DNA of 35,961 nucleotides from Nitrospinota bacterium (GTDB taxonomy: Bacteria > Nitrospinota_A > UBA7883): positions 1 to 35,961 of the forward strand of contig JACQZB010000083.1 of assembly GCA_016207925.1 (NCBI GenBank), in the 5' to 3' direction. The translations under genes were made by a program, and so were the position numbers. Below are positions 196 to 33,560 of this stretch, one piece after another; within the stretch, counting starts at the first letter, position 1, and each line of letters begins with the position of its first letter. The notes beneath the pieces are model-generated. The model made no database searches and was not told where the DNA came from. It saw only the letters and a list, made by a program, of their open reading frames with translations.

Positions 196-2538
196 CTAGA
201 ATTTGACCTTGGCCACGGCGGAAACCACGCTGACATCGTACGAGTTGTTGGTCACGCCCAACAGCAGGTTGCCGTTGACCGCCGCCGTGCCCGTGGTGGC
301 CCCGGAGGGGTTATACACGTTCACCTCGTCCAGCGCCCAGTCCACGATCTCGAACTTCTCGTACAGGTACTCAAGCCCCAGCGAGAACGCCTTGGTGATG
401 TTGTAGTCCGCCTTGGCGTTGACCGTGGTCAGCTTGTTGGTGATCTCCGTCAGGTACGAGGTGTCCAGCGCCGTGCCGTCCTTGCCCGCGGCGATGCCGG
501 CGCCGATGGCGAGAAACGGCCCGTAGATGCGGTGCGAACCCTTGCCGTCGCTAAACGAGTAGTCCAGCGAGTAGGAGATCGCGTCCACGCCGCCGGAGAC
601 GCCCAGGCCGTACACGCTCACCGTGTCCTCGCCGTCCACCGACCAGTCCATCTTCTCAAACGGCGTGATGCCGGTGTAGGGCGACGCCGTGGCGGCGTTG
701 CTGCGGCGGGAGGATTGCGTGTAGCTGTACTTCTCGTAGTTGTACATCGCGTTGAGCGCCACCATGCTGTTGATCATCCAGTCAACGCTCAACCCATACG
801 TGCTCATCTTGTTGCTGGTGAGGCCGTACAGGCAGTCCGCGCACTCCAGCGCCGGGTAGCCGTTGAACGCTGGCCGCTCGGTGTTGGTTGGGATGTGGCG
901 GTCCATGACCTTGTAGTCTTCGTTGGCGTTAAGGTACGTCAACGTGGCCGACAGGTCATCGGTGGGGTCAAGCTTGGCCAGCAGGTTGATCTCGCCGCGG
1001 TCCTTGTCGCCAATGTCATATTTTTGCAACATCGGCAACTGGGCCACCGTGGCGTTACCCTCGGTCACCTTGCCGCTGGCGATGGTTCCGTAGCCCTCCT
1101 CCTCGGTGATATCCACGTAGTGGTCACCGCGGCGCTGGCTCATTTTATAAGAGGCCTTCACGAACACCCAGCCCATGTCCCCCGTGGGCCGGTAGCTTGC
1201 GGATAGCCGGTAGTTGGTGTCCTTGGAGCTGTCAATCTCCCGGTGGACCCGGTTGTTGGTGATCTGCTCGTAGGTAAGCCCCAGCTTGAACCCTTGCATC
1301 AGGTTCAGGCCCAGGTCGCCGGCCCACGTGGTGTACTCGAAGGAGAGCGGCAGGTTCCGCCGGACCCCGGCGCTGGTGCTGCGGTCAGCGGTGGCGTACT
1401 GGTACCAGTCCACCATCTCAGTTTTGTTGTCGTAGTGGTAGTAGTTGTACCGCACCTTGACGTCCAGCAACTCCACCGGCGCGAAGGACAACACAAAATC
1501 GCGGTTCTGCACGTCCGCCTTGCCGTCCAGGTTGTCACGGGACAGCGCGGCCTGCTTCACCAGCGGGTTGGCCGTGCCCGCCAGGATGAACGGATCGGTC
1601 TGCTTGTGCTGGCCGACGCTCCATAGCCCCGTCAGCCGCCCGTTCATCGGCAGGTTGGCCGCGCCGGACAGCGAGTACTGCATGGCGCTGTTGTCCGGTA
1701 CCAGCACATACTCCGCCGCGGGCGACAGGTTGCCGCCAACGGCGCTGGTGGAGGCCACCCACGGGTTATCGTACCGCGCCGTGTCAATGGCGTTGCTGAA
1801 AGACGAGGTCTGGTAGTTGAACATCAACTTGTAGTCCTCGTCCTGGTAGCCGATCCGCCCGTTCATGATCGTGGAGGTGTAATCAATCGGCTCCTCGGTT
1901 TCACGGATGAACCCGAAGGAGTAGTAGTTGCTCCACGGCCGGGCGCCTTCCCGCTTCTCCTGCGAAACGTCGGCGCTAAAGCGGATGTTCGGCGTGATGT
2001 TGAAGAACACATTGGCCTCGGTGGTCTTGCGATCCAGTTCGAGGTCAATGGGGTGGGTTTGCGCCGCCATCGCCTTGATGGCCTTGTCCGGCGCGCCGGC
2101 CTTGATGGGCGCGGTGTTGGCGGCCTGGATGGCGGCCTGGATGCTGTCATCCACGGTGTACACGCCGTCCGACGGGTTGTTGAAAATGGTCTGGGCGCCC
2201 TCATAGAAATTGTGCGGCGTGGCGTCGTAGTTCAACCCTACCTCCCACTCGCCGTACTTCCCGCCGGACAGGCCGAACTCCTGCGTCCGCCGGCCGATGT
2301 CGTCCGCCGTAAAGCCGATATGGAACACGCTGTCCTTCTCGGCCGTGACCGAGGCGGACGCCGTGGCGCCGTCCTTGATGTCCCGGTACTCGTTGAACTT
2401 GGACATCTGGCTCGACTCGTTCACATTGTCATAGCGCACGGAAGCTTCGCCGCGGGTTTCCCAGTCCCCCGCAAGGGAAGCGGACGGGAACGCCAGCAAG
2501 GCGCCCGCGGCGAGCAGGCTCATCAATTTCGTTCGCAT
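196..2538 (-). CDS. MtrB/PioB-family outer-membrane beta-barrel of a decaheme conduit
   Basis: This is a predicted outer-membrane porin that would sheath the decaheme cytochrome encoded just upstream, so that electrons can cross the outer membrane. The protein starts with a clear signal peptide (basic start, hydrophobic LLAAGALLAF, cleavage after SLA). It continues with many alternating amphipathic strands rich in Tyr/Asp/Asn and ends in VKF, the aromatic C-terminus typical of barrels inserted by the Bam machinery. About 780 residues is a usual size for MtrB/PioB. A CADC pair lies in the second half; Shewanella MtrB has its CxxC near the N-terminus, so this one may be unrelated. I chose the start at 2538 because GGAGGAG lies 4 nt upstream and the signal peptide begins there. 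A second in-frame ATG at 2613, also with a good ribosome site, would add 25 residues before the signal peptide. The family call is firm; the direction of electron flow and the partner are unknown. Confidence 0.85.
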   Translation of the reverse strand: MRTKLMSLLAAGALLAFPSASLAGDWETRGEASVRYDNVNESSQMSKFNEYRDIKDGATASASVTAEKDSVFHIGFTADDIGRRTQEFGLSGGKYGEWEVGLNYDATPHNFYEGAQTIFNNPSDGVYTVDDSIQAAIQAANTAPIKAGAPDKAIKAMAAQTHPIDLELDRKTTEANVFFNITPNIRFSADVSQEKREGARPWSNYYSFGFIRETEEPIDYTSTIMNGRIGYQDEDYKLMFNYQTSSFSNAIDTARYDNPWVASTSAVGGNLSPAAEYVLVPDNSAMQYSLSGAANLPMNGRLTGLWSVGQHKQTDPFILAGTANPLVKQAALSRDNLDGKADVQNRDFVLSFAPVELLDVKVRYNYYHYDNKTEMVDWYQYATADRSTSAGVRRNLPLSFEYTTWAGDLGLNLMQGFKLGLTYEQITNNRVHREIDSSKDTNYRLSASYRPTGDMGWVFVKASYKMSQRRGDHYVDITEEEGYGTIASGKVTEGNATVAQLPMLQKYDIGDKDRGEINLLAKLDPTDDLSATLTYLNANEDYKVMDRHIPTNTERPAFNGYPALECADCLYGLTSNKMSTYGLSVDWMINSMVALNAMYNYEKYSYTQSSRRSNAATASPYTGITPFEKMDWSVDGEDTVSVYGLGVSGGVDAISYSLDYSFSDGKGSHRIYGPFLAIGAGIAAGKDGTALDTSYLTEITNKLTTVNAKADYNITKAFSLGLEYLYEKFEIVDWALDEVNVYNPSGATTGTAAVNGNLLLGVTNNSYDVSVVSAVAKVKF

Positions 2539-2628
2539 TGCGCTCCTCCATGGCGCGCCCGCGCTCTCGCGGGCGGCGCCGGTCACGTCATCACGCTGAT
2601 TGATCGTGTTCATGGCTTCCTCCCTCGA

Positions 2629-3582
2629 TTAGCGGTGGAACCGCGGGCCAGACGGAGAGTTGGACCCGTGGATCTGTTGGTGACAGTTGAGGCATCCCCT
2701 GTTGTACATGAACTGGCCCGTGCCGGTGGTCACATACGCCCCGTTGGCGTCAACCGCGCGCGGATCGGTATAGGCGTTGGAGGGATGGTTGGTGTTCGCA
2801 TGGCACCGCTGGCACAGGAACGGAATCTTGGCCTTGAGCGCCTTGTGGTTGTTCGTGCCGTGCGGGTCGTGGCAGTTGGTGCAGTTCTCGCGCACGGGGG
2901 CGTGCTCCCACAGGAACGGCCCGCGCTTTTCCATGTGGCAGGTGTAGCAGGTTTCATTGACCGTCAGGCCCACCAGCAGCCGCTGGCCGGCCGAGCCGTG
3001 CGGATTGTGGCAGTTGGTGCAGGTCATCTTCCCTTCACGGAAGGGCATGTGGTTCGTGCGCTGGAACTGCGCCTTGCGCTGGGTGTGGCACTGGAAGCAG
3101 GTGTCCTCCACGGTGCCCTTGGCCATCTGGCGCGTCTTGCCCGTTTTCTTCATGATGGTGTGGCAGTCCACGCAGGCCACGCCGTTGGACTGGTGCTGCG
3201 ACCCCTTCCAGTACATCTTGTAATCGTCGTTGGTATGGCACCCCAGGCAGACCTCGTTCTTCTGCGCCGCGGTCAGCGGCGAATGCTTTTTAAACGAAGT
3301 GATCTTGGCCAGGTCATTGCCCCGTCCGTCCTTGGCGTCGGCCATGTGGGCCTCGCCGGGGCCATGGCAGGCCTCGCACCCCTTGGCCTGCATGTCGTTC
3401 CGCGGATTATGCAGCAACACCTTGCCGTGCATCGTCTCGGAGAACGATTCAAAAAAATCCTCGTGGCACAACCGGCAATCTTGCGCCGTGGCGGCGTCCG
3501 CTCCCGGCGGCGCCCACAAAACCCCCGCGGCCGCCCCCATCAACAGCGCGATGAAGGCAAGCCTCCCCAAACATCGTGGCAT
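2629..3582 (-). CDS. Periplasmic decaheme c-type cytochrome (MtrA/PioA/DmsE family)
   Basis: The 317-residue protein has a signal peptide (MPRCLGRLAFIALLMGAAAG, cleavage near ADA-AT) followed by exactly ten CxxCH heme motifs: CRLCH, CEACH, CLGCH, CVDCH, CFQCH, CTNCH, CYTCH, CTNCH, CQRCH and CLNCH. This size and count match the MtrA/PioA/DmsE family, periplasmic electron wires that plug into an MtrB-type barrel. The barrel gene follows after 15 bp to its upstream ATG, so the two form an operon. The start at 3582 is set by GAGGAGG about 6 nt upstream and by the signal peptide; a longer frame runs to 3726 but its extra residues look non-coding. A sigma-54 promoter lies about 80 bp upstream. The role could be metal reduction, metal oxidation or another extracellular redox reaction. 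Confidence 0.92.
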   Translation of the reverse strand: MPRCLGRLAFIALLMGAAAGVLWAPPGADAATAQDCRLCHEDFFESFSETMHGKVLLHNPRNDMQAKGCEACHGPGEAHMADAKDGRGNDLAKITSFKKHSPLTAAQKNEVCLGCHTNDDYKMYWKGSQHQSNGVACVDCHTIMKKTGKTRQMAKGTVEDTCFQCHTQRKAQFQRTNHMPFREGKMTCTNCHNPHGSAGQRLLVGLTVNETCYTCHMEKRGPFLWEHAPVRENCTNCHDPHGTNNHKALKAKIPFLCQRCHANTNHPSNAYTDPRAVDANGAYVTTGTGQFMYNRGCLNCHQQIHGSNSPSGPRFHR

Positions 3583-3662
3583 GATTCTCCTCCTCAATAA
3601 TTGAACTTCAGCCCGCTTTAATACCCCTGAAGTCACCCCGCCCAAGGGTTCAGCTAAGACTA

Positions 3663-3678
3663 AGCAAGGGCTGTGCCT
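3663..3678 (-). promoter_or_regulatory. Sigma-54 (-24/-12) promoter of the cytochrome operon
   Basis: On the minus strand the sequence reads AGGCACAGCCCTTGCT. Against the consensus TGGCACG-N4-TTGCW it keeps GGCAC, the 4-nt spacer and TTGCT, with exactly 10 nt between the invariant GG and GC. Transcription would begin near 3653, giving a leader of about 70 nt before the cytochrome ATG. An NtrC-type activator gene lies immediately upstream, which supports the call. Confidence 0.75.
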
Positions 3679-3790
3679 TCGCCGGACATGCCCCGCGCGG
3701 CGCGCGATTCTGGCAAGCATGGACAATTCAATCAGATTAGGCTGGTCCGCAAAACCACGTTCGTATGGGCCGGGTGGTGGATTATCAGGC

Positions 3791-3819
3791 TTGAGAAAAC
3801 AGGCGGGTTATTTTCTTAA
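3791..3819. promoter_or_regulatory. Candidate enhancer dyad for the NtrC-type activator
   Basis: TTGAGAAAA at 3791-3799 and TTTTCTTAA at 3811-3819 form an inverted repeat (8 of 9 positions pair) with an 11-bp spacer. Its centre is about 150 bp upstream of the predicted sigma-54 transcription start, a usual distance for activator binding. It lies between the regulator's stop codon and the conduit operon. The stem is AT-rich and no T-run follows, so a terminator is less likely. Binding by the neighbouring regulator is inferred. Confidence 0.5.
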
Positions 3820-3859
3820 AACGGATATTGCGCGGGATCAGGCATTCGGGCGCCGCGGG

Positions 3860-5221
3860 CTACTCACCCGCGCCGCCTTCGATTCCCAACTCCCGGACTT
3901 TGCGGTACAGCGACGGCAAACTTACGCCCAGAATTTCCGCGGCGCGTTTTTTATCGTTCTCCGTGGAGCGCAAGGTATCGGCGATCAGGGTACGCTCGTA
4001 GCGATCCAGGGCTTGGCGTAAAAATTGGGGGGAGGGGGACTGGGAGCACAGTTGCCCGAACCCCGCGGGCAGATGCTGTTCATTAATCCATTCCCCGTCG
4101 CACATGATCATGGCGCGCTCGATGATGTTCTTGAGTTCGCGCACGTTGCCGCGCCAGTCGCAGGCCAGGAACGCGGCGATAACCTCCTTGGCGGCGCCGC
4201 GCACGTTCTTGCCGAAATCCGCGTTGAACTGGGCGACGAACCAGTCCACCAGCGGGGGTATGTCCTCGCGCCGGTCCCGCAGGGGCGCGATGGCGATCTC
4301 GAACATCGAGAGGCGGTAATACAAATCCTCGCGGAACCTTCCGGCGGCGGCTTCCTCCTTGAGGTTGCGGTTGGCCGCCGCGAGGATGCGCACGTTGACC
4401 CGCTCCACGCCCCGCCCGCCCAGGGGGATGATTTCGCGCTGCTCGATGGCGCGCAGCAGCTTGCCCTGAAGCTCCACGGGCATGGAGCCGATTTCGTCAA
4501 GAAACAACGTGCCCCCCTCGGCCAGCCGGAAGTACCCCTCGTGCCGCGCCTCGGCGCCGGTGAACGACCCCTTGTAGTGGCCGAACAACTCGCTTTCCAA
4601 CAGGGTGGGAGGGATGGCGGCGCAGTTGACCGGCAGGTAGGGCTGGTCGCGCCGGGGGCTTTTTTCGTGGATGGCGCGGGCCACCAACTCCTTGCCCACG
4701 CCCGACTCGCCGGTGATAAGCGCCGTGCTGGCGGTGGGGCCGATGCGTTCGATCAGGGCGAACACCTCGCGCATGGCCGGGCTGGCGCCCACCATGTGGC
4801 TGTACATGCCGCTGCGGCGCAACGTCTCGCGCAGGGACTGGTTCACGCGCATCAGCTCACGCTCCCGGAACAGGCGGCGGGCCTTGAGCAACAGCTCGGA
4901 AAAGTCGAAGGGTTTGACGATGTATTCCGCGGCGCCCAGCTTGACCGCTTCCACGGCGCTTTCGATGGAGCCGAAGGCCGTCATGATGAACACGGGGGCG
5001 CCGGGCAGAACCGTCTTGAGCCGGCCCATCACCTCCACCCCGTCGGCGCCCGGCATCACCATGTCCAACAGCACCAGGTCGTAGCCGCGTTCGGCGGCGT
5101 GGCGCAGCGCCTCCTCGCCGTCGGCGGCCACGGTGACGGCGTACCCTTCTTCTTCCAGCAGCTCGCGCAGCGAGTCGCGCAGGGCGGTTTCGTCGTCCAC
5201 CACCAGGATGGTTTCAGACAT
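3860..5221 (-). CDS. NtrC-family sigma-54-dependent response regulator
   Basis: The 453-residue protein has three parts in the standard order. The receiver domain (1-120) has its phospho-acceptor at D53 and the conserved Lys at K103. The AAA+ domain (about 145-380) has Walker A GESGVGKE at 171-178, the sigma-54 contact loop as GSFTGA at 218-223 and Walker B GGTLFLDEI. A C-terminal Fis-type helix-turn-helix ends the protein (AAEILGVSLPSLYRKVRELG). All catalytic motifs are intact; Ala to Ser in the GAFTGA loop keeps the essential Thr. The ATG at 5221 overlaps the end of the sensor kinase by 8 bp, so the two are co-translated partners. Likely target: the sigma-54 promoter of the cytochrome/porin operon directly downstream. 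A longer open frame to 5500 lies inside the kinase and was rejected. Confidence 0.93.
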   Translation of the reverse strand: MSETILVVDDETALRDSLRELLEEEGYAVTVAADGEEALRHAAERGYDLVLLDMVMPGADGVEVMGRLKTVLPGAPVFIMTAFGSIESAVEAVKLGAAEYIVKPFDFSELLLKARRLFRERELMRVNQSLRETLRRSGMYSHMVGASPAMREVFALIERIGPTASTALITGESGVGKELVARAIHEKSPRRDQPYLPVNCAAIPPTLLESELFGHYKGSFTGAEARHEGYFRLAEGGTLFLDEIGSMPVELQGKLLRAIEQREIIPLGGRGVERVNVRILAAANRNLKEEAAAGRFREDLYYRLSMFEIAIAPLRDRREDIPPLVDWFVAQFNADFGKNVRGAAKEVIAAFLACDWRGNVRELKNIIERAMIMCDGEWINEQHLPAGFGQLCSQSPSPQFLRQALDRYERTLIADTLRSTENDKKRAAEILGVSLPSLYRKVRELGIEGGAGE

Positions 5222-7118
5222 GGGCCGTCTCCGTGGCGGGCGCCGCGGGCAGGCGCAGGCGGAACACGGTCCCCGCGCCCTTGCGGCTTTCCACGGTGAT
5301 GTCGCCGTCGAGGCCGCGCATGATGTTGTAGCTGACGAACAGGCCCAACCCCACGCCGCGGCCGGGGCGCTTGGTGGTGAAGAACGGCTCGAACACGCGC
5401 CGGGCTTCTTCCTCGCCCATCCCCTCGCCGTTGTCGGCGAAGGTGACCAGCAGGGCGCCGTTCTCGCGGGCGGCGGTGATGGACAGCTCCGCCCCGTCAC
5501 GGCCGGCAGTGGCGTCGGCGGCGTTGAGGATCAGGTTCATGCACACCTGTAAAAAGCTTTGCGGCGCGCCCATCGCCGCCGGAAGGGTTTCGTCAAAATG
5601 GGTGACGATGGCCAGCTTGCGGGCGCGGTTGTCGTAACGCGCCATCTGGATCGCGCCGCGCACCGCCTCGGCCACGTCAAAGCGCTCGCGCAGCCTTCCC
5701 TTGGGCCGCGCGTAATCCAGAAAGTCGCTCACCACGCGCGTCAACCGGCTGATGTGCTCGCGCATGAGCGCGATCTTCTCGCGGGTGAACGGCTCCGCGG
5801 TGCGCCGCTCGATAAGCTGGGCCACGGTGGAAATGGAGGCCAGCGGGTTGCCCACCTCGTGCGCCAGGCCGGTGGTCAGCGCGCCGAGCGACGCCAGCTT
5901 TTCCGCCTGCCGCAGTTTTTCCTCCATCTTCACCCGCCCGGAGACCTCCAGGATTTTTTCCACCACCATCTCCACCTGCCCGTCCGCGCCGAAAATGGGG
6001 TAGGAAGTCAATTCTGCATAGGTCACTCCGCCGTCCTTGGCCTGGCCGGTATGCTTGGTGAACGCCGGTTTGCCGGTCACGAACGTTTCCGCCACGGCGC
6101 AGTCCTCGCACCGTTCCTGCCGGCCATGGATCACCTCATAGCAGTGCTGGCCCAGCACTTCCTCGCGCGGGCGCTTGAGGACGCGCAGCACAAAGTCGTT
6201 GGTCATCACCATGCGGTAGTCGCGGTCAAGCACGGTGACTCCTTCGCCTATGCTGCCAAGCACCGTGCGCAAAAAGGCTTCCGTGCGCTCCAGCCGCTGG
6301 TAATTATCCTTCAACCGCGCGGTCATCTGGTTGAAGCTTTGCGCCAACTCGCCGATTTCATCCCGCCTTCCTTCCAGCGCCGCGTCCTTGGCCGGCCAGC
6401 CCTGCGGCGTGGTGCCGCGCGCGATCCCCGCCAACTCCCGGATCGGCTCGGTGACCGTCCGGCGCAGGGCCACCCACAGCAGAACGGCCACCACCGCCAT
6501 GACCATCGCGAACCCCGCGGTGAGCTTGATGACCAGCGCGCGCAGCGCCGCCTGATCCTCCGCGGTGGACATGGCCACCAGCAAGAAACCGCGCACGGCG
6601 CTTGACCCGCCGTGGCAGCGGTGGCAGCGCTCCTCATTGAGCAGGGGGAACAACATGGCGTGCGAAGCGCGATCCGGGTCGTAGGCGGTCACGGGCAGGC
6701 GCGTTTCCATCGCCTTCTGGAGCATCGGGTCGTTCTGCGCCAGCCCCGCGCCCGCGGGGCGCGGCTCCCGCACATATACGTCGCGGTCAATCCGCGCGGA
6801 CACCGAATTCAACGTGGAAAGGTCGGTAAACGCCGCCGCGCCGTTGGCCTTAAGCGCCTCCACCCGTTCCACGGCGGGGAAACCCTTGAACTTTTGGATG
6901 AGCATGGAGGCGGATTTCATCTCGCCGTTGAGCATGTCCTCGGTGATGTGCGAGGCGATGCTCTCCGACAGCAGCGTCAGCCGCCGCAGTTGCTCCTCGC
7001 GGAACAGATCGGCCACCCACGAGATCAAAGGGACGCCAATGACGGTAAAGCCCACCAACAGCGCGGCGATGATAAGCGTGATGATTTTTTTCCGCAACGA
7101 TTGGTTCACAGCGCCCAT
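5214..7118 (-). CDS. Membrane sensor histidine kinase with periplasmic c-type heme motif
   Basis: The 634-residue kinase has a first membrane helix at about 10-36, then a periplasmic sensor of about 155 residues. The sensor ends in NEERCHRCHGGS, with CHRCH at 175-179 a heme c attachment motif just before the second helix (about 196-218). HAMP, PAS, HisKA (H-box around GLAHEVGNP) and an HATPase domain (NLILNAADAT, then GVGLGL) follow. The PAS domain holds a CEDC pair in a Cys-containing loop. The layout matches heme-family (DUF3365/Tll0287-like) sensor kinases of cytochrome-rich bacteria, which suggests redox or small-ligand sensing. It is transcribed with the NtrC-type regulator (8-bp overlap), next to the decaheme operon. 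Start: the ATG at 7118 has GGGGAG directly against it, so a GTG at 7109 with better spacing may be the true start. Confidence 0.9.
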   Translation of the reverse strand: MGAVNQSLRKKIITLIIAALLVGFTVIGVPLISWVADLFREEQLRRLTLLSESIASHITEDMLNGEMKSASMLIQKFKGFPAVERVEALKANGAAAFTDLSTLNSVSARIDRDVYVREPRPAGAGLAQNDPMLQKAMETRLPVTAYDPDRASHAMLFPLLNEERCHRCHGGSSAVRGFLLVAMSTAEDQAALRALVIKLTAGFAMVMAVVAVLLWVALRRTVTEPIRELAGIARGTTPQGWPAKDAALEGRRDEIGELAQSFNQMTARLKDNYQRLERTEAFLRTVLGSIGEGVTVLDRDYRMVMTNDFVLRVLKRPREEVLGQHCYEVIHGRQERCEDCAVAETFVTGKPAFTKHTGQAKDGGVTYAELTSYPIFGADGQVEMVVEKILEVSGRVKMEEKLRQAEKLASLGALTTGLAHEVGNPLASISTVAQLIERRTAEPFTREKIALMREHISRLTRVVSDFLDYARPKGRLRERFDVAEAVRGAIQMARYDNRARKLAIVTHFDETLPAAMGAPQSFLQVCMNLILNAADATAGRDGAELSITAARENGALLVTFADNGEGMGEEEARRVFEPFFTTKRPGRGVGLGLFVSYNIMRGLDGDITVESRKGAGTVFRLRLPAAPATETAHV

Positions 7119-7806: not shown

Positions 7807-7865
7807 GACGAATCCTTATAGAGGCGGGTAAGGTGTGATGGCGTTTGTCCGCTCATGACAGACAA

Positions 7866-7956
<91 letters not shown>

Positions 7957-8010
7957 ACGGCGTTTTCGGGGCCGAAAGCGCGCATTGTACCATGGGCCGC
8001 GCCCTTGCGC

Positions 8011-8039
8011 TTGCCTTCCGCCCCGGCCGCCGATACACT
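8011..8039 (+). promoter_or_regulatory. Putative sigma-70 promoter of the PpiC-type gene
   Basis: TTGCCT (8011-8016) and TACACT (8034-8039) are separated by 17 bp and lie about 44 bp before the ATG at 8083. Each hexamer matches the consensus at four of six positions, so this is a moderate match. Confidence 0.35.
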
Positions 8040-8082
8040 ATTCCATTCTACACCTTACTTCTCATATAGGCAGGCGGCGTTA

Positions 8083-9141
8083 ATGCAACCTCGTGTCATT
8101 GCGGTGGTTCTGGTTCTTGCGGTTTCCCTGGGGCTTGGGTATTACGTCAACAGCGCGCTCAAGGCCCGCGTTCCGGAGCCGTCACAGGCCGCCCCGGTGA
8201 GCTTTTCCCTGGACGCCCCCATCAATATAGACTACGACGCCATCCCGCGGGTCATCGCCGAAATCGGCGGCCAGCCGGTGGACCGGGAACGCTATGTGCG
8301 CGCCCTGCGCGGATTCGAGCGCAACGCGCGCCGCGTGGGCCATGGCGGCCCCGCGCCGGACATGGTCGCCCGCGTCAAACAGGACATCCTCGACACGCTT
8401 ATCAACACCGAACTGTTGCTCCAGCGCGCCCAACAGAACGGCGTCACCGTGGCGGACAGCGACGTGGACGCCCAGATTGAGCGTATCCGCGCCAATTTCC
8501 CCGACGCCGACACCTTCGAGCAGACCCTTGAGCGCCAGGGATTGACCGCGGCGGACCTGCGGGAGGAAATCAACCGCGGGCTTCGCATCCAGTTGTTGCT
8601 CGAACGCGAGATCAACCCCCGCGTGCAGGTAAGCGAGGAGGACGCGCGCGCCTACTACGACGGCCACCCGGATGAATACAAGGAAGAGGAAAAGGCGCAC
8701 ACCGCCCACATCCTCGTCCGCGTTGACCCCTCCGCCACCGCGGATCAGCGCGCCGCCGCCCGCGCCAAGGCCGAGGCCGCGCTCGCGCGCGTCACCAAGG
8801 GGGAAGACTTCGCCAAGGTGGCCGCGGAGATCAGCGAAGATCCCGGCAGCGCCCCGCGCGGGGGCGACGTGGGCGCGCTGGCCCGCAACGACGTGGTTCC
8901 CGCTTACGGCGACGCGGCCTTCGCGCTGGAACCCGGCCAGATGTCAGGCGTGGTGGAGTCCCCCTTTGGCTACCACATCATCAAGCTGATCGAGAAAACG
9001 CCGGGGCGCGTGGCGCCCTACGAGGAGGCTCGCGGCGCGATCCTCAACGCGCTTAAGGGGATGAAGACCAACGAGCTGACCCGCGAATACCTGGCCCGCC
9101 TGCGCGGGGAGGTAAAGGTCAAGATTTTCCTGCCATCGTAG
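8083..9141 (+). CDS. Membrane-anchored peptidyl-prolyl isomerase (SurA-N/PpiC)
   Basis: The 352-residue protein begins with a hydrophobic helix (about 5-22) that would anchor or export it. A SurA_N-type chaperone region follows, with IAEIGGQPVDRERYVRAL and repeated paired helices. A parvulin domain comes last, with KAHTAHILVRV, the SEDPGSAPRGGDVG loop and SPFGYHIIKL. These proteins help outer-membrane and periplasmic proteins fold, which fits an organism exporting barrels such as the MtrB-type protein nearby. I chose the ATG at 8083 because the protein-like sequence begins there; the longer open frame from 7855 runs through the tRNA region and is not coding. It is convergent with the DUF1848 gene, 13 bp away. 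Which client proteins it serves is unknown. Confidence 0.88.
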   Translation: MQPRVIAVVLVLAVSLGLGYYVNSALKARVPEPSQAAPVSFSLDAPINIDYDAIPRVIAEIGGQPVDRERYVRALRGFERNARRVGHGGPAPDMVARVKQDILDTLINTELLLQRAQQNGVTVADSDVDAQIERIRANFPDADTFEQTLERQGLTAADLREEINRGLRIQLLLEREINPRVQVSEEDARAYYDGHPDEYKEEEKAHTAHILVRVDPSATADQRAAARAKAEAALARVTKGEDFAKVAAEISEDPGSAPRGGDVGALARNDVVPAYGDAAFALEPGQMSGVVESPFGYHIIKLIEKTPGRVAPYEEARGAILNALKGMKTNELTREYLARLRGEVKVKIFLPS

Positions 9142-30509: not shown

Positions 30510-30795
30510 GCTGGGGGAGGATCCCGCCCTGGAGGCGCGCCTGGCGGAGGTGGAGCGCGAACGGGACACCTACGCCCGGGCGCTGGCGGAGGCCAACGCG
30601 GCCTTCATGGAGAAGGTCAAGGCATTCTCCATCCTCAAGCGCATCGGCGAGTCCAGCGGCGCGCTTCTTCGGCGACAGCGAGAACAGCGGCACGCGGCTG
30701 GCCCTGGGCGAAGGGGTGGCCGGATGGGTGGCGCTGCACGGCTCCTCCATGCTCATCAAGGACGTCACCAAGAGCAAGCGGTTCCAGAAACTTGA
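30502..30795 (+). CDS. N-terminal fragment of the GAF-PAS histidine kinase (interrupted)
   Basis: The frame from TTG 30502 (GAGGG 8 nt upstream) encodes a charged coiled coil (ALEARLAEVERERDTYARAL) and the beginning of a GAF domain (FSILKRIGESSG). It then loses sense: residues past about 55 are Arg/Gly/His-rich and read the kinase DNA out of frame. The rest of the kinase continues in frame +1 from about 30662 (FFGDSENSGTRLALGEGVAG). The usual 50-60 residues in the middle of a GAF domain are absent. The most economical reading is one gene with an internal deletion that also shifts the frame, or an assembly misjoin. Confidence 0.7.
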   Translation: MTRLGEDPALEARLAEVERERDTYARALAEANAAFMEKVKAFSILKRIGESSGALLRRQREQRHAAGPGRRGGRMGGAARLLHAHQGRHQEQAVPET

Positions 30796-32173
30796 ATCCA
30801 AGGTGAGCGACCAGATCAAGTCCATCCTATGCATGCCGATCCAGGGCGAGGAGGAGGTGATCGGCGTGATCAACATGTCGCACCCGGACATCGGCGCCTT
30901 CTCGCGGGAGAACGAGCGGGCGCTGACGCTAATCACCCACCAGGCGGCGCTGGCGTTCAACAACCTGTATCTGCTGGAGCGCATCAAGAGCTTCAACGAA
31001 CGCCTCGAACACGTGGTGGCGGAACGCACGCGGGAACTGCGCTACTCGGAGAGCAAGTACCGCTCCTTCATGGAGCAGGCCGGCGACGCCATTGTGGTGG
31101 CCGAGCGGGGCGGCGAAGGGCGGATCATCGAGGTCAACGACCGCGCCTGCGCCTTCACCGGGCTGATGCGCGAGGAATTGGCCGGCAAACCGCTGGCCAG
31201 CCTGGTGGAGCCGGCGTCGCAGAAGGAACTGAAGGAATTGCTCCACGGCGGCGAGGGAGCGCGCTCCGACATCCGGGTGCGCCGCCATTCGGGCGCCTCG
31301 CTGTATGCGGACATCTCCGCCAACACCATCGTCACGCCGGGGGGCGAGGTGACGCACCTTATCATCCGGGACGTGACCTTGCGCAAGGAACTGGAGGCCA
31401 AGCTCAAGGAGTATTCCGAGCGGCTCGAGGAACTGGTGGAGCAGCGCACGCGCGAGTTGCGCAAGGCGCAGGGCGAACTGGTGCTGGCCTCCAAGATGGC
31501 GGCGGTGGGCGAGTTGGCCTCTGGCGTGGCGCACGAGATCAACAACCCGCTGGCGGTGATCAGCGGCTACGCCGAGGACCTGCTGGACAAGCTGCGGAAG
31601 AAGCTTCCCCTGGAGCCGGACGAGGTGGCCGAGGCGCTTGCCATGATCACCCGCCAGTCCGACCGCTGTCAGGAGATCACCAACAGCCTGCTCAACTTCA
31701 CCCGGACCGAGGAGTTGCGCCTGGCGCTGGTGGACGTAAGCTACGTCGTCCTGCAGGCGATCCATTTCGCCACGCACCGCGCCAAGCGGCGCGAGATCGA
31801 GTTCCAGACGGACTTCGACAAAAGCCTTCCCCACATCACCTCCGACGCCAGCATGATCGAGCAGGTGCTGCTCAACCTGTACAACAACGCCATTGACGCC
31901 ATCGAGGCGACAGGCAAGGTGGTCACCTCCACCCGCCTGGAGGGGCCGAACGTGATCATCAGCGTGCGCGACACGGGCTCCGGCATCCCGCGCGAACTGC
32001 AGGACAAGATTTTCAATCCTTTTTTCACCACCAAGCCCGTGGGCAAAGGGACGGGCCTGGGGCTTTCGATCTGCCACAAGCTAGTGGAGCGGCTGCATGG
32101 CCAAATCGCCGTGAGCAGCGAGGTGGGGGTGGGGACGGAGTTCACCATCGCCTTGCCGGCGAGCCTGATGTAG
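30716..32173 (+). CDS. Soluble histidine kinase (truncated GAF, PAS, HisKA, HATPase)
   Basis: The 485-residue frame begins at GTG 30716 inside a GAF domain (GEGVAGWVALHGSSMLIKDV, then LCMPIQGEEEVIGVINMSHP). Coiled coil, PAS (FMEQAGDAIVVAERG region) and a second coiled coil follow. HisKA has its H-box around SGVAHEINNPLAV, and an HATPase domain follows (NLYNNAIDAIEATG, FNPFFTTKPVGKGTGLGLS). No membrane helix, so it is cytoplasmic. It lies 28 bp before the response regulator. The kinase core is intact, but the GAF domain's first part is missing, so if translated from 30716 sensing may be lost. The start given is only the open-frame limit. Confidence 0.85.
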   Translation: MAGWVALHGSSMLIKDVTKSKRFQKLESKVSDQIKSILCMPIQGEEEVIGVINMSHPDIGAFSRENERALTLITHQAALAFNNLYLLERIKSFNERLEHVVAERTRELRYSESKYRSFMEQAGDAIVVAERGGEGRIIEVNDRACAFTGLMREELAGKPLASLVEPASQKELKELLHGGEGARSDIRVRRHSGASLYADISANTIVTPGGEVTHLIIRDVTLRKELEAKLKEYSERLEELVEQRTRELRKAQGELVLASKMAAVGELASGVAHEINNPLAVISGYAEDLLDKLRKKLPLEPDEVAEALAMITRQSDRCQEITNSLLNFTRTEELRLALVDVSYVVLQAIHFATHRAKRREIEFQTDFDKSLPHITSDASMIEQVLLNLYNNAIDAIEATGKVVTSTRLEGPNVIISVRDTGSGIPRELQDKIFNPFFTTKPVGKGTGLGLSICHKLVERLHGQIAVSSEVGVGTEFTIALPASLM

Positions 32174-32201: not shown

Positions 32202-33560
32202 ATGACGACGGACAATAACAAGATACGCCTGCTGATCGTGGATGACGAGGACGCCTTCCGCGAACTATTGGTGCGCCGTTTCGACCGGACGGAGTTCGAG
32301 GTCACCGGCTGCGCTTCGGGGGAGGAGGCGCTGGCCATGGCCCAAACCCGCCTCTTCGACGTGGGTGTGCTGGACATCCGGATGCCCGGCGTGTCGGGCA
32401 TTGACCTGCTGCGCGAGATCAAGAAGACCCAGCCCGACTTCGAGGCGATCATGCTCACCGGCCAAGCCACCATTGATTCGGCCATCGAAGCGATGAAGAT
32501 CGGCGCCTACGACTACCTGGCCAAGCCCTGCAAGCTGTTCGAGCTGGAGATCATCATCCGCAAGGCGTATGAGAAGAAAATGCTGTCGCAGGAAAACCGC
32601 CACCTGCGCGGCGCCTTGCGTAAAAAGCTGGAAGACCGCCACATGGCGGGGTCCTCCCCCCAGCTCACGGAGACGCGCGCGCAGATCGAGCGGATCGGCA
32701 AGCTGGACGACGCCGCGCTGATAACCGGCGAGATGGGTTCCGGCAAGGGTCTGGCCGCGTTCATGATCCACCGCGCCAGCCGCCGCAAGGAGGAGCCGTT
32801 CATCAACGTCAACTGCGGCGTGCTGGCCGAGGGGCTGCTGGAAGTGGAACTGTTCGGCCACGAGGCCGGCGCGTTTGTGGGCGCGGGCAGCCAGAAAAAG
32901 GGCATGGTCGAGACCGCCTCCGGCGGAACGCTGTTGTTGCAGGAGGCGGATCAGCTTTCCCCCTCGCTGCAGGTGAAACTATTGGGCTTTCTGGAAACCG
33001 GGGAGTTCCGCCGCGTGGGGGGCGCCGCCGACCTTGTGGCGGACACGCGCCTGATCTTCGCCACTACGCAGGATCTGTTGCGCCTGACCCAGGCGGGAAA
33101 GTTCCGCGAGGACTTTTACCTTAAAATATCGGCCATTTCCCTCTGCATACCCGCCCTGCGCGAACATAAGGAGGATATTCCCGAAATCGCCGAATACATC
33201 ATCAAGAACCGCTCCCACAGCCCCTCCGCGCGCTCAAAGCGCCTGTCCAAAAAGGCGGTGGACGCGCTGTTGAAGTACGCTTGGCCCTCCAACGTCCGCG
33301 AACTGGAGAACGTGCTGGAGCGGGCCATCGGCCTGGCCGCCAAGAACGTGATCCAGCTTAAGGATCTGCCCATCAGTTTTGAGAAACGCGCGCGCGCCGG
33401 GCGCCAGCGCCACCTGCTAAGCCTGTCGGAAGTGGAGAAGGAGCATATCCTGCACGTGCTCGACGCGGTGAACGGCAACATCTCCCGCGCCGCGCGCATA
33501 CTGGGCATCAGCCGCCCCAAACTGTACCGCAAACAGGAAAAGTACCGCTCCGGGGCGTAA
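32202..33560 (+). CDS. NtrC-like response regulator with degenerate AAA+ domain
   Basis: The 452-residue protein has the NtrC order: receiver domain (D58, K108 present), AAA+ domain and Fis-type HTH (AARILGISRPKLYRKQEKY). The AAA+ part is altered at its key positions. The sigma-54 loop is GAFVGA at 213-218, with the essential Thr replaced by Val. Walker A reads GEMGSGKG at 166-173. Walker B has Gln for Asp (GGTLLLQEAD, Q237). The second arginine-finger region reads FREDFYLKI, so its usual Arg is Lys. Sigma-54 activation and ATP hydrolysis are therefore unlikely, while phosphorylation and DNA binding could remain. It is the output of the HDOD-kinase cluster. The ribosome site GTAGGAA is clear. 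Confidence 0.92.
   Translation: MTTDNNKIRLLIVDDEDAFRELLVRRFDRTEFEVTGCASGEEALAMAQTRLFDVGVLDIRMPGVSGIDLLREIKKTQPDFEAIMLTGQATIDSAIEAMKIGAYDYLAKPCKLFELEIIIRKAYEKKMLSQENRHLRGALRKKLEDRHMAGSSPQLTETRAQIERIGKLDDAALITGEMGSGKGLAAFMIHRASRRKEEPFINVNCGVLAEGLLEVELFGHEAGAFVGAGSQKKGMVETASGGTLLLQEADQLSPSLQVKLLGFLETGEFRRVGGAADLVADTRLIFATTQDLLRLTQAGKFREDFYLKISAISLCIPALREHKEDIPEIAEYIIKNRSHSPSARSKRLSKKAVDALLKYAWPSNVRELENVLERAIGLAAKNVIQLKDLPISFEKRARAGRQRHLLSLSEVEKEHILHVLDAVNGNISRAARILGISRPKLYRKQEKYRSGA

Follow-up and report, generated by a model that had tools for sequence, protein, structure and literature searches.

In Geobacter, the sigma-54-type response regulator BccR (GSU0598) governs a cytochrome of extracellular respiration, as we propose for the regulator described here, though its target, CbcBA, is an inner-membrane cytochrome, unlike the conduit considered below. 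Sigma-54 promoters of Geobacter sulfurreducens share the core TTGGCACGGTTTTTGCT, and Geobacter RpoN affects cytochromes that serve extracellular respiration, with omcB upregulated in an RpoN+ strain (PMC2725144). In D. vulgaris the sigma-54 core reads tGGcacg/tTGCt, and the sigma-54 activator DVU3142 has been described as a regulator of the octaheme Ohc electron transport complex (PMC4641369). In Shewanella, omcA and mtrC require CRP (PMC4417206). Outside Shewanella and Geobacter, control of the building of outer-membrane conduits is poorly known.

In this study, we analysed a stretch of 35,961 nucleotides from a Nitrospinota bacterium (contig JACQZB010000083.1, hereafter the window), for which a preliminary description had proposed sigma-54 control of an outer-membrane electron conduit by a dedicated heme-motif two-component system. 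Our best reading, which we consider likely on the strength of the sequence comparisons below, is that a sigma-54 promoter drives the conduit operon and is controlled by the heme-sensing two-component pair encoded next to it.

Results

The genes of interest lie on the minus strand in the order sensor kinase, NtrC-type regulator, a 277-nt gap, decaheme cytochrome and MtrB/PioB barrel. The cytochrome (2629..3582, minus strand; 317 aa, 10 CXXCH motifs) belongs to the DmsE/MtrA family, scoring 267 bits against TIGR03508 (cut-off 192), and the outer-membrane barrel (196..2613, minus strand; an 805-aa ORF) matches PF11854 at 299 bits and TIGR03509 above its cut-off. With a decaheme protein above the TIGR03508 cut-off and an MtrB/PioB barrel adjoining it, the pair is a DmsE/MtrA-MtrB conduit. 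The best solved relative of the cytochrome is 6r2q (1.9e-66), which we take to be the Shewanella baltica MtrCAB complex, the matched chain being its MtrA; the molecule label in the file differs. The contig starts at window base 1, leaving 195 nt beyond mtrB. Elsewhere in the window, a tRNA-Ser (cga) lies at 7866-7956 on the minus strand, and an ORF predicted at 7855-9141 runs through this tRNA; the start of this peptidyl-prolyl-isomerase-like ORF ('GGEGGIRTHG...') is therefore spurious.

The intergenic region between the activator and cytochrome genes (3583..3859, minus strand, 277 nt) contains the sigma-54-type element AGGCACAGCCCTTGCT, which runs from 3678 to 3663 on the minus strand with GGCAC (-24) at 3677-3673 and TTGC (-12) at 3667-3664. 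The GG at 3677-3676 and the GC at 3665-3664 are ten bases apart, giving the exact GG-N10-GC spacing within GGCAC-N5-TTGC. Compared with TGGCACG-N4-TTGCW, the element agrees at 10 of 12 positions; the T at -26 is missing and A, not G, follows GGCAC. Dinucleotide shuffling of the intergenic stretch reached this score in 9 of 1000 cases. The sequence, strand, coordinates, core and spacing given in the preliminary description were all correct on re-reading, and its distance of about 80 bp before the cytochrome start was measured as 81 nt to the ATG (3582-3580), which is preceded by a strong ribosome-binding site, GAGGAGGAG (3587..3595, minus strand). Sigma-54 spacing rules applied to the -12 position predict a transcription start at about 3652 on the minus strand and a 5' UTR of about 70 nt.

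A search of 192 genomes with the cytochrome as query yielded a single locus (L121) that is orthologous throughout, in a genome of the same class but a different family (G019). Gene order there is the same, with identities to the window of 42% for the kinase, 45% for the regulator, 60% for the cytochrome and 38% for the barrel. The G019 gap carries GGGCACACAAGTTGCT at the position corresponding to the window promoter; this site, TTGGGCACACAAGTTGCTC, keeps GGCAC and TTGC complete, followed by A and T respectively, and lies 159 nt ahead of the start codon, while apart from the core the longest identical word common to the two upstream gaps is 7 nt. A class-wide pattern scan independently returned the same site. 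G019 has 14 such sites in total versus 4 for the control, and from this density the probability that one would fall by chance, in the right orientation, in its 366-nt gap is about 1 in 860 (~0.0012). Conservation of the GG and GC at homologous loci, which the preliminary description had proposed to examine, thus extends in this one orthologous locus to the whole core. Between the predicted G019 promoter and the cytochrome start codon there is also a terminator-like hairpin with a T-run (L121:5746-5766), a possible site of attenuation, and directly after mtrB lies a 645-aa repeat-rich ORF (L121:9258-11195), fibronectin-type-III-like by eye, that may be a surface partner of the conduit.

The source genome holds a second, divergent kinase-regulator-decaheme-MtrB set (L126, G000:C7:1-10000), in which the cytochrome is 43% identical and the contig ends within the kinase gene. 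Its gap carries a weaker -24/-12-like site, TGGCATACAATCTGCT, at about 2383-2398; the site, TTGGCATACAATCTGCT, is 104 nt before the start and scores 9, a value reached in 42 of 1000 shuffles. A fourth kinase-regulator-decaheme set was found in an AT-rich genome (G119), where the kinase is without a heme motif and the gap contains no GG/GC site. Two genomes added from the same order gave no further case, and among the named loci, which are mostly proteobacterial, none has an NtrC-type gene directly upstream of a decaheme gene. A site is thus present in three of the four decaheme loci with an NtrC-type gene directly upstream. As a control, 300-nt upstream regions were scored for 101 decaheme genes that have no directly adjacent NtrC-type gene; none scored at least 10, and nine scored 9. 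Scores of at least 10 therefore occur in 2/4 loci with the adjacent gene versus 0/101 without it (Fisher 0.0011, window included), and p is about 0.03 once the window, which had been picked because of its score, is excluded. The conservation evidence is good, although built on few loci. Of the 385 genomes and 79 named loci searched, only the source genome and G019 showed all four parts together with a heme sensor (the best 30 loci of each genome search were read in context). A sigma-70-like site was sought in the upstream regions of the window, G019 and L126 loci, and none was found.

Across the 2.67-Mb source genome, GGCAC-N5-TTGC has 10 exact matches versus 22 for its reversed control. The word is thus rarer than the control rather than enriched, and genome-wide enrichment was dropped as support for the promoter. 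Adding the terminal W to the pattern gives 6 matches versus 5. As to placement, 6/10 matches lie outside every ORF of at least 200 aa versus 13% expected from random window positions, two further matches, AGGCACAGCCCTTGCT included, fall only where an ORF frame seems to extend too far at its 5' end, and several of the ten sit 35-70 nt ahead of an ORF. The six sites ending in TTGCW all read TTGCT, and five of them have A after GGCAC, as does AGGCACAGCCCTTGCT. More GGCACA-N4-TTGCT sites outside large ORFs, at L002, L003, L006 and L009, are likely other sigma-54 promoters. rpoN occurs once in the genome, and the activator domain PF00158 has 27 matches, mostly full-length. The pattern by itself is weak; context and conservation raise its weight, and taken together they make it very probable that 3663-3678 is a sigma-54 promoter.

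The NtrC-type response regulator (3860..5221, minus strand) comprises a receiver, a sigma-54 AAA+ domain and a Fis-type HTH, with PF00072, PF00158 and PF02954 all above cut-off, and its best solved match is an NtrC-family chain (4l4u, E 4e-107). The preliminary description had called this neighbour intact, and we agree, since the receiver Asp (phospho-acceptor D53), the Walker A motif GESGVGKE, the GSFTGA sigma-54 contact loop (4553..4570, minus strand) and the HTH are all present. The GSFTGA variant is not a defect, because it occurs in 11/28 activator domains sampled across five genomes of the clade and is among the activator-competent variants listed in D. vulgaris (PMC4641369). The G019 activator has GAFTNA; in D. 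vulgaris, GAFTDA and GAFTHA, which vary at position 5, count among the competent forms (PMC4641369). A third ortholog of the kinase-regulator pair, apparently spread over two contigs of another genome (G008), is 44% identical in the kinase sensor and 50% in the regulator. In this regulator (L272:874-2220), GYVTKSSDGTTT replaces the GAFTGA loop, which should prevent the protein from engaging sigma-54; no conduit gene lies alongside and the next gene is oppositely oriented. Loss of the loop where no conduit adjoins is consistent with the conduit promoter being the loop's client, as a single case and not as proof. A further NtrC-type regulator within the window (32202-33560, plus strand), directly preceded by a kinase gene (30716-32173), has GAFVGA for GAFTGA (Thr to Val) and may not work with sigma-54.

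A possible enhancer, an imperfect inverted repeat with the core AGAAAA-N11-TTTTCT (3783..3827, minus strand), lies about 130 bp upstream of the -24 element; this dyad is expected by chance, is not significant and is not shared with the G019 locus. A search of the window and G019 regions for dyads and shared words found nothing in common beyond CCGTTTT, and IHF sites within one mismatch were absent from the window, weak elsewhere and in no case shared. The G019 region has a perfect palindrome, CCGTACTGTAGTACGG (L121:5485-5500), about 155 bp upstream of its -24 element, a candidate enhancer that is absent from the window.

The sensor histidine kinase (5214..7118, minus strand) overlaps the activator gene by 8 nt and is a membrane protein with a periplasmic sensor of the heme-c type, HAMP, PAS, HisKA and HATPase domains; the heme-c motif of the sensor, CHRCH (6612..6626, minus strand), lies between two membrane helices. 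A sequence search of the sensor against solved structures returned only 3b47 and 3b42 (E 0.0014 and 0.015), which are c-heme sensor domains from GSU0582 and GSU0935, and both were again among the best fold matches of the predicted sensor model (pLDDT 83; E 2e-7 to 1e-5). The rmsd of these matches is high, as expected, since the crystals of both domains are swapped dimers (PMC3460858). PF21563 scored 25.6 bits on the sensor, just under its cut-off of 27, and DUF3365 had no Pfam match in the kinase. The sensor has the fold and, at the corresponding place, the one CXXCH that mark Mcp40H-20/GSU0582-like c-heme periplasmic sensors; the GSU0582 and GSU0935 domains belong to chemotaxis receptors, whereas the one described here is part of a histidine kinase that also has HAMP and PAS.

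Discussion

The evidence presented here supports part of what was first proposed for this locus: the promoter is conserved, the activator is intact and the sensor is of the c-heme type. The word 'dedicated', however, reflects gene order only, since the genome has 27 activator-domain matches. From the arrangement of the genes, we consider the adjacent regulator the likely cognate activator of the promoter, and the conduit is probably turned on by the neighbouring heme sensor. In our model, sigma-54 RNA polymerase would wait at 3663-3678 as a closed complex. In the periplasm, the kinase's c-heme sensor would change state with the surroundings, probably via heme oxidation state or ligation, and the state of the heme would set kinase activity. 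The kinase (5214-7118) would then phosphorylate the regulator (3860-5221), which would bind the gap ahead of the cytochrome gene, and transcription would begin near 3652.

The promoter could be sigma-54-dependent and yet be opened by an activator encoded elsewhere, with the adjacent pair serving other targets. The number of activator domains in the genome would allow this, as would the lack of an enhancer common to the window and G019 despite similar recognition helices (SLPSLYRK and SLSSLYRK), but kinase, regulator, promoter and conduit remain together in both genomes and the site recurs at most decaheme loci with an NtrC-type gene directly upstream, making a distant activator improbable. That the match is coincidental, with the cytochrome gene transcribed from a different promoter or by read-through out of the kinase-regulator operon, seems to us slightly more improbable still. 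The rarity of the word relative to its reversed control speaks for coincidence, and the regulator gene, on the same strand just 277 nt away, could supply read-through; on the other hand, the full core stands at the orthologous place in G019, no other decaheme upstream region among the 101 scores as high, the upstream region is without a sigma-70-like site and the genome matches lie mainly outside large ORFs. There is no reason to prefer read-through as the sole source of the cytochrome transcript.

Control of the conduit by the adjacent pair through sigma-54 may also be right while the sensor reports NO or another heme ligand and not redox potential, a variant of our best explanation that does not exclude it. 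When linked to signalling modules, another class of Cache-heme domains (DUF3365/Tll0287) behaves as NO sensors (PMC12889525); for GSU0582, a much higher affinity for NO in the oxidised form has been reported (PMC8396549). Given these observations, redox signalling by the sensor is plausible but not established. We nevertheless regard the NO variant as rather unlikely, since for the nearest solved relatives, GSU0582 and GSU0935, redox-linked loss of the axial methionine has been proposed as the switch (PMC8396549), the target is an electron conduit and not an NO enzyme, and the kinase is unmatched by DUF3365.

If redox is the signal, a further, tentative proposal, to which we give slightly less than even weight, is that the locus is a self-contained module in which the c-heme kinase would read the redox state of the envelope, and its own NtrC-type regulator and sigma-54 promoter would switch the adjoining conduit without leak; the second set in the genome may answer a different signal. 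Since a sigma-54 promoter gives no transcription in the absence of its activator, an energetically costly conduit would stay tightly off until the signal arrives. Equipped with a heme sensor and an activator of its own, and with a tightly closed promoter, such a conduit would constitute a compact, transplantable redox switch, and the module makes a testable claim as to which potential (or ligand) switches the conduit on.

Each part of the locus resembles a described system and departs from it in some respect. The window regulator has the receiver, AAA+ sigma-54 domain and Fis HTH of the NtrC-type regulators of the NtrC1, AtoC and ZraR group, but it misses the curated cut-offs of the NtrC, AtoC and ZraR equivalogs and its partner is a heme-type kinase. 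MtrAB and PioAB outer-membrane conduits likewise consist of a TIGR03508 decaheme cytochrome and a TIGR03509/PF11854 barrel; for the Shewanella conduits, unlike the window locus, we found no report of a sigma-54 site or NtrC-type partner. The Geobacter and D. vulgaris promoter targets cited above include no DmsE-MtrB pair that has a heme-sensor two-component system of its own next to it, and where the window site has A after GGCAC, the consensus of those organisms has G. A literature search found no description of sigma-54 combined with MtrA/MtrB. Sigma-54 promoters, NtrC-type regulators, c-heme sensors and MtrAB conduits are each well known; what appears to be new at this locus is their combination.
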